From Herbiconiux sp. L3-i23 (lineage in GTDB: Bacteria; Actinomycetota; Actinomycetes; Actinomycetales; Microbacteriaceae), in the NCBI RefSeq assembly GCF_023734115.1, contig NZ_AP025737.1:2232001-2296000 (forward strand): a stretch of DNA of 64,000 bases, written 5' to 3'. Shown here piece after piece: positions 2,984 to 58,397 of this stretch. The position numbers were made by a program, and so were the translations under genes. Under the pieces are notes generated by a model. The model was not told the origin of the DNA and searched no databases. It was given only the letters and a program-made list of their open reading frames with translations. Position 1 is the stretch's first letter. Each line of letters begins with the position of its first letter.

Positions 2984-3544
2984 GTGGGATCGGTCCTGTT
3001 GGTGCGGCACGCCGAGGCGGATTGGGCGAGCGCCGATGCCGCAGGTCTGGCCGGCCCCGCTCGCGATCTCATCGGTCTCACTCGGGCAGGTGTCCAGCAG
3101 GCGCAGGCTCGGGCCGAGCAGCTCGTGGACCTCGGCGCAGAGCGGATCGTGTCCTCGCCCATGACGAGGGCTCTGCAGACGGCGTCGATCATCGCATCGC
3201 GGGTGGGGCTCACTCCCGTTGTGGAACACGACCTGCGCGAGTGGGGCCCCGTGGGTGACTCCGGCTGGGATCACGCAGCGATGCGCGCGGCCTGGGCGGA
3301 CCTCGAGCGCTCAGGCGGCGAGTGGCCGCAGGGCGACCGACGGGACTGGGAGCCGCTCAGCTCGGTCTTCACGCGCGTGACGGCGGTCCTGCACCGCCTC
3401 CAGGCGTCGGCGGGACGCACGGTCGTCGTCACTCACGGCGTGGTGATCGCGACGGTGACGGGCGTGGATCCCGGGCTCGGCGAGGCGGTCTCCTACCGGC
3501 GGATCGACGGCGTCGCCCATTCCGACCTGCGTCGGCATGCTTAG
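2984..3544 (+). CDS. Histidine phosphatase family protein
   Basis: The 186-residue product belongs to the phosphoglycerate-mutase-like histidine phosphatases. The phosphohistidine motif RHAE is at residues 8-11 (LLVRHAEADW), followed by SSPMTRALQTA around 57-67, an acid-bearing HDLREWG segment, and the second catalytic histidine in VVVTHGVV near residue 150. The substrate cannot be read from the sequence. The GTG at 2984 is chosen because the family begins only a few residues before the RH motif; the longer open frame upstream runs antisense through ftsE. It is divergent from ftsE, with about 120 bases between the start codons. Confidence 0.85.
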   Translation: MGSVLLVRHAEADWASADAAGLAGPARDLIGLTRAGVQQAQARAEQLVDLGAERIVSSPMTRALQTASIIASRVGLTPVVEHDLREWGPVGDSGWDHAAMRAAWADLERSGGEWPQGDRRDWEPLSSVFTRVTAVLHRLQASAGRTVVVTHGVVIATVTGVDPGLGEAVSYRRIDGVAHSDLRRHA

Positions 3545-45071: not shown

Positions 45072-46271
45072 GTGACGGTGCACGGATCTTGGGAGCGAGC
45101 CGCTCGCGGCGCCCTGCTGCTCGACCCGGACGGGTCGGCGCGGACGACGATCTTCGCCGAGATGAGCGCACTCGCGGCGCGCACCGGGGCGATCAACCTG
45201 GGGCAGGGGTTTCCCGACTACCCGGGTCCGGCGGAGGTTCTCGAGGTCGCGCAGCGCGAGATCGCGGCCGGCAACAACCAGTACCCGCCGGGGCGCGGCA
45301 TCGCGTCGTTGCGCGAGGCGATCAGCGAGCACCAGCGGCGCTTCTACGGGCTCGAGTTCGATGCCGATCGGGAGGTCCTCGTCACGGCGGGGGCGACGGA
45401 GGCCTTGGCGGCGACGATCCTCGCCCTCATCGACGACGGCGACGAGGTCGTCACCTTCGAGCCATTCTACGACGAGTACGGCGCCTGCATCGGGCTCGCG
45501 CGCGGCGTGCACAAGACGGTGCCGCTGGCGGCGCCGGACTTCCAGCCCGACCTCGACCGACTCCGGGCCACAGTGACGGATAAGACGCGCCTGATCGTGG
45601 TGAACACTCCGCACAATCCCACGGGGGCGGTCTTCAGCCGCGAGGTGCTCGAGACCATCGTTGACCTCGCCGAGCGACATGACGCGTACATCGTCACCGA
45701 CGAGGTGTACGAGCACCTGCACTACGACGGCTCCGTCCACGTGCCGATCGCAACCCTGCCGGGCGCACGCGAGCGCACGATCACGATCTCGTCGGGTGGG
45801 AAGACCTTCAACACGACGGGGTGGAAGATCGGCTGGCTCACCGCCCCGGCGCCGCTCGTCGACGCGGTGCTCGCCGTGAAGCAGTTCCTCACGTACGTCA
45901 ACGGCAGCCCGTTCCAGCCGGCGATCGCGGCGGGACTCTCGCTGCCCGACGAATTCTTCGCCTCGCTCGCCAGCGACCTCGCCGGCAAGCGCGACCTCCT
46001 CGCCGGCGGACTCCGCGCCGCCGGGTTCGGGGTGACGCTCCCCCGCGCCGGCTACTTCATCGTCGCCGACGCCCGCCCGCTCGGCTTCACCGACGGCGCC
46101 GACCTGTGCCGCCGACTGCCGGAACTAGCGGGCGTCGTAGGCGTGCCGATCTCGGCCTTCTGCCTCCCCGAGAACGCGGACCAGTACTCGCCCCTGGTCC
46201 GCTTCGCCTTCTGCAAACGCCTCGACGTCCTGGAAGAAGCCTCCCAACGCTTGGCCTCCCTCACCCCCTGA
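45072..46271 (+). CDS. PLP-dependent aminotransferase (class I/II)
   Basis: The 399-residue product is a fold-type I aminotransferase of the DapC/kynurenine-aminotransferase-like group. It shows INLGQGFPDYPGP near residue 40, YPPGRGIASLREAI near 75, VNTPHNPTGAVF near 180 and the Schiff-base Lys in SSGGKTFNTTGWKIGW near 245. The substrate is uncertain. I start at GTG 45072; TAGCGT ends eight bases before it. The intergenic region after its stop contains the GGATCAGGAG array. Confidence 0.92.
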   Translation: MTVHGSWERAARGALLLDPDGSARTTIFAEMSALAARTGAINLGQGFPDYPGPAEVLEVAQREIAAGNNQYPPGRGIASLREAISEHQRRFYGLEFDADREVLVTAGATEALAATILALIDDGDEVVTFEPFYDEYGACIGLARGVHKTVPLAAPDFQPDLDRLRATVTDKTRLIVVNTPHNPTGAVFSREVLETIVDLAERHDAYIVTDEVYEHLHYDGSVHVPIATLPGARERTITISSGGKTFNTTGWKIGWLTAPAPLVDAVLAVKQFLTYVNGSPFQPAIAAGLSLPDEFFASLASDLAGKRDLLAGGLRAAGFGVTLPRAGYFIVADARPLGFTDGADLCRRLPELAGVVGVPISAFCLPENADQYSPLVRFAFCKRLDVLEEASQRLASLTP

Positions 46272-46284
46272 CCCGACACTCCGG

Positions 46285-46574
46285 GTACACGGATCAGGAG
46301 AATGTGCACGGATCAGGAGAAACGGCGCGAATAGTCCTGATCCGTGTGCGAGTTGCCCACTTTCCCGCCGGATCTCCTGATCGGTGCACAAACTCCTGAT
46401 CCGTGCACCCACGGTTGAGACGGCCGGGTGCGAGGAAACAGGAGCAGGCGGCCGGGGCAGGCGGGGGTGTGCACGGATCAGGATGACGCCCGCGACACGC
46501 CGAATCGAGACCCCGATCCAGTCCTGAACGGCGGGCATTCTCCTGATCCGCGCGCAATCTCCTGATCCGTGTAC
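46285..46574. repeat. Array of eight GTRCACGGATCAGGAG-type repeats in both orientations
   Basis: Forward copies start at 46285, 46304 and 46469; reverse-complement copies lie at 46335-46349, 46374-46389, 46393-46408, 46540-46555 and 46559-46574. Each is 15-16 bases with at most one or two changes. The order is two forward, three reverse, one forward, two reverse, with irregular spacing, within the 358-base gap between convergent genes. Inverted pairs could fold into hairpins. This is not a CRISPR array. Confidence 0.9.
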
Positions 46575-46629
46575 CCACGGGTCGCAATGGGCGGGTGCGG
46601 CGGGCGGGCCGGGGTTCCGGTGGGGTGGG

Positions 46630-47442
46630 TCAGGCGGGTTCGACGCGGTAGCGGCGCAGGTCAAGGGCCGGATTCTTGGCCCGGACCTGGGCGAGGCGCT
46701 CCGTCGAGATCCACGCGACCGCGACATCGGTCGCCTCGCCGATCTCGACCATGTGCACGCCCATCGGCCCCACGATGAGACTGTTGCCGACACCCACCGG
46801 CGGAGCGTGGTCGGCCGCCGCGACGTAGATCGTGTTCTCGATCGCCCGCGCCGTCACCAGGGTGCGCCAGTGATGCTCCTTCAGCGGACCCCGCACCCAT
46901 TCCGCAGGGATCAGCACCAGATCGGCCCCGGCATCCACGAGCCGGCGCGTGACCTCGGGGAAGCGCACGTCGTAACAGGTCTGCATACCGACCTTGATGC
47001 CGCCCACCTCGAAGATCTCGGGAGCCGCGCTCGGGTCGCCGGGCACCACCCAGTCGCTCTCGCGCTGCCCGAACGCGTCGTACAGGTGCAGCTTGCGGTA
47101 CCGGGCGACGACGCCCGAGGCGTCGACGGCGACGAGGGTGTTCGAGAACTTGCCGGACGGCTCCATCTTCTCGACGACGCCCGCCACGATCGTCACGGAC
47201 AGACGCGTGGCGAGGGTGCGCAGCGCCTCCACGAATCGTCCGTCGAGGGTCTGGGCGTTGCGCGCGAAGCTGCCGTCCATCGGATCGGCGAAGTAGGACG
47301 AGTACTCGGGGAAGACGACCAGTTGAGCGCCGCGCTCGGCGGCGAGGGTGGCGAGTCCGGTGATCCGGTCGAGATTCTCGACGGCGTCGCGGCCCGGCGC
47401 GAACTGCGCCACTGCCACCCCGAGCTGCGCGTCGCTCACCAT
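46630..47442 (-). CDS. Carbon-nitrogen hydrolase (nitrilase-superfamily amidase)
   Basis: The 270-residue product has the nitrilase triad: Glu in VVFPEYSSYF near residue 45, Lys in ARYRKLHLYDAF near 115 and Cys in GMQTCYDVRFPE near 153. The latter sequence matches omega-amidase or deaminated-glutathione-amidase-type members. The substrate is unknown. It is convergent with the aminotransferase at 45072, across the repeat array, and not otherwise linked. Confidence 0.92.
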   Translation of the reverse strand: MVSDAQLGVAVAQFAPGRDAVENLDRITGLATLAAERGAQLVVFPEYSSYFADPMDGSFARNAQTLDGRFVEALRTLATRLSVTIVAGVVEKMEPSGKFSNTLVAVDASGVVARYRKLHLYDAFGQRESDWVVPGDPSAAPEIFEVGGIKVGMQTCYDVRFPEVTRRLVDAGADLVLIPAEWVRGPLKEHHWRTLVTARAIENTIYVAAADHAPPVGVGNSLIVGPMGVHMVEIGEATDVAVAWISTERLAQVRAKNPALDLRRYRVEPA

Positions 47443-58341: not shown

Positions 58342-58397
58342 GACTCGCCCGCTTCACCCCGTGTTCTGCGCCCCGGACGGGGTGAAGTGGGCGAGTC
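58342..58397. terminator. 21-bp hairpin at the 3' end of the ATPase pseudogene
   Basis: 58342-58362 and 58377-58397 are complementary with one mismatch in 21. The right arm overlaps the ancestral stop codon (58396-58398) of the ATPase gene on the minus strand, so the stem could terminate that transcript. Confidence 0.6.

Follow-up and report, generated by a model that had tools for sequence, protein, structure and literature searches.

Hairpin repeats of Herbiconiux sp. L3-i23 that recur genome-wide and their probable partner, an AbiEi-like/DUF559 nuclease gene

The RAYT/REPIN system looks like the nearest analogue of the pairing of hairpin repeats with DUF559 genes described here. According to passages of PMC3116915, the RAYT gene is single-copy and not self-mobile, and it stands with many hairpin doublets and co-evolving words. 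As in that system, inverted pairs of an intergenic word give hairpins that occur in many copies and in tandem arrays, the words adjoin a distinctive nuclease gene (here DUF559, on both sides), one word family belongs to each gene, and word and protein appear to co-evolve (same passages of PMC3116915). The partner is, however, a DUF559 protein (PD-(D/E)XK, Vsr-like) whose N-terminus resembles AbiEi, and not an HUH Y1 transposase. Furthermore, the RAYT/REPIN tags GTAG and CGTC named in the title of PMC3733652 are absent from the unit GTRCACGGATCAGGAG, the one unit inspected by eye for them. Since no Y1 transposase, the defining component, was detected, the elements are not assigned to RAYT/REPIN.

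Other described systems share part of these features. BIMEs, or clustered REPs, are intergenic mosaics built from palindromic units (excerpts of PMC2817692), with which the present type A/type B hybrids compare, whereas the word, the 19-bp step and the partner protein differ. MITEs resemble the elements in being short, non-coding and dispersed with inverted termini. On the protein side, VsrA of Caulobacter belongs to the same DUF559 domain family and has been studied as an endonuclease with a predicted role in mismatch repair and a tie to cytosine methylation; unlike the genes considered here, it has no repeat-element association described in the consulted parts of PMC12907096. AbiEi antitoxins resemble the N-terminal part of the protein, which is fused here to a nuclease domain. 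AbiEi-like/DUF559 proteins are common in actinobacteria and have no agreed function. A link between DUF559 and palindromic repeats was not found in the literature searched, which consisted of titles, abstract starts and passages, including those of PMC12907096 and PMC3710099, with subscription journals and preprints outside its scope.

The window is a stretch of 64,000 nucleotides of Herbiconiux sp. L3-i23, at 2,232,001-2,296,000 of its contig, and positions below refer to it unless given as genome positions. The array at 46285-46574 consists of two adjacent palindromic elements, of 124 bp (46285-46408, + strand) and 106 bp (46469-46574, + strand). All eight of its units lie within zero to two mismatches of GTRCACGGATCAGGAG. 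The first element carries two forward units without mismatch, GTACACGGATCAGGAG at 46285-46300 and GTGCACGGATCAGGAG at 46304-46319, followed by reverse units at 46334-46349 (two mismatches), 46374-46389 (one) and 46393-46408 (none), with start offsets of 0/19/49/89/108. The second carries a forward unit at 46469-46484 (one mismatch) and reverse units at 46540-46555 (two) and 46559-46574 (none); reading by eye adds a degenerate unit at about 46520-46537 and a centre, CGACACGCCG, at 46493-46502. The three forward and five reverse units thus follow the order given by the sequence-only reading, which had also denied them a constant spacer. This last claim was not confirmed: each tandem unit starts exactly 19 bp after its neighbour (46285/46304, 46374/46393 and 46540/46559), and the unit offsets of both elements recur throughout the genome. 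Its statement that the array is not CRISPR-like holds, the units standing in both orientations at start offsets of 19, 30 and 40 bp and not between unique spacers of constant length. In the whole window nine matches to GTRCACGGATCAGGAG were found at up to three mismatches, the ninth being solitary (45078, three mismatches), as compared with a mean of 1.38 and a maximum of five in 100 dinucleotide shuffles, none of which reached nine.

Both elements folded better as single-stranded DNA than all 200 of 200 shuffles, in keeping with the proposal that the array may form cruciforms. Element 1, taken with two flanking bases per side, reached −45.6 kcal/mol (z −9.9), and element 2 had a z of −3.6. 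As had been noted, the gap that holds them lies between convergent genes, an aminotransferase-like gene at 45072-46271 (+) and a nitrilase/amidohydrolase-like gene at 46630-47442 (−), both named from reading the sequence alone. This pair of neighbours is kept in all eight congeners examined. No sigma-70-like promoter site was found in the gap, which says little because shuffles also gave none. Rfam gave no match at the gathering score in 46000-46900; nine matches to miRNA models reached 18.6-28.2 bits, where the gathering scores are 54-197.

The unit was then counted over the genome. On the 3.14-Mb contig the exact 16-mer GTRCACGGATCAGGAG occurs 48 times and its reversed pattern not once, and at up to three mismatches the counts are 193 and 42. 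Together with near copies, the exact ones fall into at least 30 clusters, and all clusters listed are intergenic according to gene calls made by an in-house script with a simple codon score, no standard program being used; the number of clusters rests on about 100 of the 193 matches, and clusters made of degenerate units alone may be missing. The sequence-only reading had held that units scattered singly over the genome would reduce the array to a chance cluster of a common repeat. Every one of the 48 exact copies has a second unit within 130 bp. With the shuffle and reversed-pattern controls and the recurring offsets, this refutes chance clustering, for which the short length of the unit speaks and nothing else, and we give it practically no credence. 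Two solitary weaker matches, of two mismatches each, were seen elsewhere (L081, L092). Words related to GTRCACGGATCAGGAG also occur in Frigoribacterium. A viral source of the word was considered and rejected, six viral contigs each having a single isolated match with no array nearby.

Two layouts recur among the dispersed copies, to which we refer as the GTRCAC family. Type A, of about 105 bp, has forward units at 0 and 19 and reverse units at 49 and 89, the last two separated by a conserved asymmetric stretch GAGTTGCCC..TTTCGGGC. Type B, of about 106 bp, has a forward unit at 0, reverse units at 52, 71 and 90, and the centre CGACACGCCG. Element 1 of the array is a type A element with one extra unit, and element 2 is of type B. 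Template scans gave 21 type A matches, of which two repeat an already counted element in a second register, plus 12 type B matches; loci L090 and L098 resemble hybrids of both types by eye. Some copies have additional 19-bp units at the ends of the element, and the family is dispersed, as expected from the earlier suggestion of a repeat with duplication activity. The biggest tandem expansion observed lies at L102, positions 3125-3292 (genome about 2,578,620-2,578,790), where nine reverse units in 19-bp steps stand beside a type B element. Taken together, the sequence-only reading is partly supported, and a simple regulatory locus with several binding sites seems the less likely account of the array.

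The clusters are unevenly placed with respect to genes. Seventeen of the 30 listed lie in convergent, four in divergent and nine in codirectional gaps, and within a stretch of 436 kb the gaps of the family are convergent in 8 of 10 cases as compared with 39 of 262 gaps overall (P = 4.5e-6). This bias could reflect a host function. It agrees, as do the strong hairpins, with bidirectional terminators or stabilisers of mRNA 3′ ends that the host has selected between convergent genes. Against this explanation, which we consider very unlikely, no GC-rich stem followed by a T-run was found in 46150-46750 (0 versus 0.4 in shuffles, hence weak evidence), and a second hairpin family of the genome, with the word GGTGAAGTGGGCGAGTC, shows no convergent bias, since only 2 of its 14 matches are in convergent gaps. 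Host-selected terminators would moreover leave unexplained that such hairpins flank DUF559 genes.

This flanking was met at genome positions 1,234,000-1,241,000 (L088), where two type A elements directly bracket a single gene encoding a protein of 290 amino acids. Residues 205-279 match DUF559 (PF04480) with 45 bits against a cut-off of 20.6. At the N-terminus, residues 3-42 match AbiEi_4 with 24.3 bits, slightly below the cut-off of 25; the protein also matches AbiEi in PADLOC, and its first 40 to 88 residues or so are AbiEi-like. One relative was found in the PDB, 3hrl 'Endonuclease-Like Protein', over residues 186-280 (E 1.4e-8). D217, E227, D229, H233 and D242 are invariant in a three-row alignment, and the D, E, H and D columns are conserved in at least 80% of the rows of a 30-row DUF559 alignment. 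The stop codon of this gene is TAA and lies outside the downstream word (L252). We consider it likely, though not certain, that the array is a side-by-side pair of REPIN-like hairpin elements, non-coding and dispersed, and that their partner is the AbiEi-like/DUF559 (Vsr-like PD-(D/E)XK) protein.

Three DUF559 genes were detected in the genome, each bracketed by its own hairpin word. The second is bracketed by CTGACCAAATGCAGGAG hairpins and the third by GACTCGCCCACTTCACC hairpins. Over 436 kb the GTRCAC word gave 41 matches at up to one mismatch, all intergenic, versus one for the reversed pattern; the word of the second gene gave 17 (up to three mismatches) and that of the third 14 (up to one mismatch), versus none reversed in either case. 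In paired copies the arms are spaced 71 bp from start to start in the family of the second gene (72 bp once) and 39 bp in that of the third. The latter has a copy inside the window, the hairpin at 58342-58397 (+); its word, GGTGAAGTGGGCGAGTC, is also found in the flanks of the DUF559 gene that lies at 1,551,696 in the genome.

We next asked how often DUF559 genes of relatives are flanked by shared repeats, by counting the exact 12-mers common to the 350 bp past the stop codon and the stretch that lies 500-1350 bp before this codon. Twelve-mers were chosen because 10-mers gave at least three shared words in 115 of 655 control genes. In nine genomes of the genus, 30 of 33 DUF559 matches had loci and entered the test. 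At least one 12-mer was shared by the flanks of 26 of these 30 loci, at least three by 23 and at least six by 19, as compared with 111, 25 and 4 of 574 control genes. Mismatched pairs of flanks reached three in 30 of 870 cases and six in 7 of 870. An inverted pair was present within each flank on its own at 19 of the 26 positive loci, and the first downstream word began at a median of 14 bp past the stop codon. In the own genome, at the loci of the second and third genes (L260 and L270), the TGA stop of the DUF559 gene itself belongs to the first word of the downstream element (cTGAccaaat... and cTGActcgcc...). Four of the 30 loci had no 12-mer common to both flanks; at one of them (L272) a palindromic element was seen by eye on the upstream side only.

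The association extends beyond the genus. In other genera of the family, at least three common 12-mers were found at 19 of 28 DUF559 loci (29 non-own loci minus L309, which is of the same genus) versus 16 of 756 mismatched pairs. Among loci from other families of the class, at least six 12-mers were common to both flanks at 8 of 29 versus 3 of 812 mismatched pairs, and 21 of 29 remained below six; this sample comprised 29 non-own loci of about 100 matches listed, and one of the eight positive loci (L305) is a weak protein match of 21 bits. A DUF559-type gene of the outgroup Frigoribacterium sp. ACAM 257 has the 16-mer on its upstream side and is bracketed by CTCCTCATTCAGGAA ends. Counting the own genome, 41 of the 59 genomes sampled from the class carry a detected DUF559 match, and relatives of the 290-aa protein (E ≤ 1e-10) were found in 80 of the 120 sampled from the family.

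Repeat flanks are not exclusive to DUF559 genes. Fourteen matches to DUF222-HNH were found in the genome, and at least three 12-mers were common to the flanks of 4 of 13 loci, as compared with 10 of 156 cross pairs. Two DUF222-HNH genes of the own genome (L236 and L238) have repeats common to both flanks. As partners of the GTRCAC family, the DUF222-HNH genes were rejected, the first and last shared words of the tested loci differing from the word of this family.

The identity of the word follows that of the protein. With seven word classes, assigned by eye for 26 loci, the tree of 30 proteins required six changes, the minimum, whereas 300 shuffles of the labels required at least 14 (mean 17.2). 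A Mantel test, which is independent of the classes, gave a rho of 0.41 between word similarity and protein identity, reached in none of 2000 permutations. Concomitantly, 22 of 32 pairs of loci at 50% protein identity or more shared a 7-mer of the word, versus 1 of 54 pairs below 20%. At the level of sequence, the data show a cognate pairing of gene and word, and word and protein covary. These results suggest that the poorly understood DUF559 nucleases handle such hairpin repeats, and we infer that the DUF559 protein mobilises them. We lean, with some reserve, towards a broader proposal: AbiEi-like/DUF559 proteins would be a class of their own among nucleases that mobilise repeats, with every gene maintaining its own hairpin population through a co-evolving word, so that an organisation of the RAYT-REPIN type would have been converged on from an unrelated nuclease.

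A mechanism of this kind might run as follows. The AbiEi-like part would read the word, and the Vsr-like nuclease part would nick or cut the hairpin or its ends, perhaps while they are single-stranded at the replication fork. Repair or strand transfer would then copy the element into new intergenic sites. Many of the genes remain in place, which is also the description given for RAYTs, and word and protein change together. The tandem 19-bp units may be protein sites stacked one after another, with slippage adding further copies. If DUF559 proteins do mobilise or maintain hairpin repeats, an abundant family would gain a function, many species-specific intergenic palindromes would be explained, and there would be a second, independent case of immobile nuclease genes kept with large repeat populations. 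The covariation of word and protein already provides data from which the way the protein reads DNA could be learned.

The positions of the genes and of the elements were then compared between species. Eight groups of DUF559 genes, comprising 21 of the 30 loci, have neighbouring DNA in common between species, on one side or on both; the gene of the GTRCAC family (L252) is outside these 21. The elements behaved differently from one species to another. Among 118 gaps orthologous between the own genome and genome G002, nine were occupied in the own genome only, six in G002 only and none in both, counting any family by the word or by the 19-bp rule; for instance, the G002 counterparts of gaps 98, 332 and 344 are without the hairpins. 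In the window's own gap, palindromes with other words were seen by eye in three of eight congeners, a fourth being doubtful, and in the comparison with genome G001 this gap was the one shared of 22. The conserved occupancy of orthologous gaps hinted at by the window's gap was dropped because none of the 118 gaps was shared with G002. Neither a transposition event nor an excision product or a junction was observed in the sequences compared.

The 19-bp step itself recurred. Combined with an inverted copy, it was the commonest direct spacing in the own genome, G002 and G001, in 12, 5 and 11 gaps, respectively, versus none in shuffles (one set each), and the corresponding gaps of G001 and G002 mostly carry other words. 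This rule superseded an earlier, word-agnostic cluster detector that had many false positives (46, 37 and 47 real gaps versus 10, 8.6 and 22.2 shuffled).

This turnover bears on the possibility that the elements are operator sites through which AbiEi-like/DUF559 regulators control their own genes, the dispersed copies forming a regulon or a nucleoid-binding set. Such a role would suit the similarity of the N-terminus to AbiEi antitoxin regulators, the presence of elements upstream as well as downstream of the DUF559 genes, and the position of 13 of the 30 listed clusters (4 divergent, 9 codirectional) upstream of at least one gene. The other 17 lie between convergent gene ends, however, and the absence of any gap occupied in both the own genome and G002 fits a conserved regulon poorly. 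We therefore hold operator sites to be an unlikely explanation.

The hairpins might also be MITEs or REPs moved by a conventional transposase that the genome lacks, has lost or carries undetected, the DUF559 genes merely attracting or tolerating them. They are indeed palindromic, dispersed and present or absent between species; related words occur in genome G004 without a detected cognate gene, and repeat flanks are found at some DUF222 genes as well. Arguing against this origin, PF01797 (Y1 transposases including RAYT), the only transposase family screened genome-wide, had no match in this genome, while 5 of 14 control genomes were positive. Within that screen no multi-copy autonomous parent was found, and the sole candidate for one was the DUF559 gene with its element flanks. 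Unlike MITEs, the elements show no target-site duplication (no excess over flank shuffles for 26 elements at k = 2-5). IS200/IS605-type elements make no target-site duplication either, so that this absence is not decisive. Also against bystander insertion are the agreement of the word with the DUF559 tree, unexpected under such insertion, and the recurrence of the DUF559-repeat pairing in other genera; many DUF559 genes also keep their chromosomal place in relatives, another difference from MITEs. An ordinary transposase as the source thus seems improbable to us.

Some words were found without a detected gene. Five genomes have a clade-A gene, and the copies of CRCGGATCMGGA in them number 123, 55, 43, 41 and 150, with reversed controls of 0-1. 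Among the genomes without a detected clade-A gene, counts at the level of the controls had been predicted in advance. This prediction partly failed, the counts being 45 in G004, 27 in G006 (68% complete), 14 in G008 and 7 in G007. No DUF559 gene was found in four 20-kb stretches of G004 around related words. PF04480 does miss members of the family, however: a gene of G004 (L140) scores 260 bits with the genus profile and is absent from the PF04480 matches, so that words of the G004 type may be orphans or belong to undetected genes.

Further palindromic families were observed in passing. In G001 (L215-L234), the CCGAGCGCG and TGTCGCA palindrome families have a 19-bp step, and no DUF559 partner was found for them. 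The same genome contains a DUF559-like gene (L224, 1959-3030) with a CCGCATCACTTCGGACTAACCGC hairpin upstream, whereas by eye the stop codon shows no more than a remnant, TGCGGATAG; the gene is a possible partner of the dispersed CCGCATC family of G001. Hairpins of CGCACGTTCC recur in gaps of the own genome and of G002, and, given the repeat flanks of some DUF222-HNH genes, a separate association of gene and repeat may exist. Finally, G003 has a further dispersed family, CTCCTCGACCAACG with GGTCTCGAGACGG palindromes, at L147 (10178-10385) and L150 (7971-8191).
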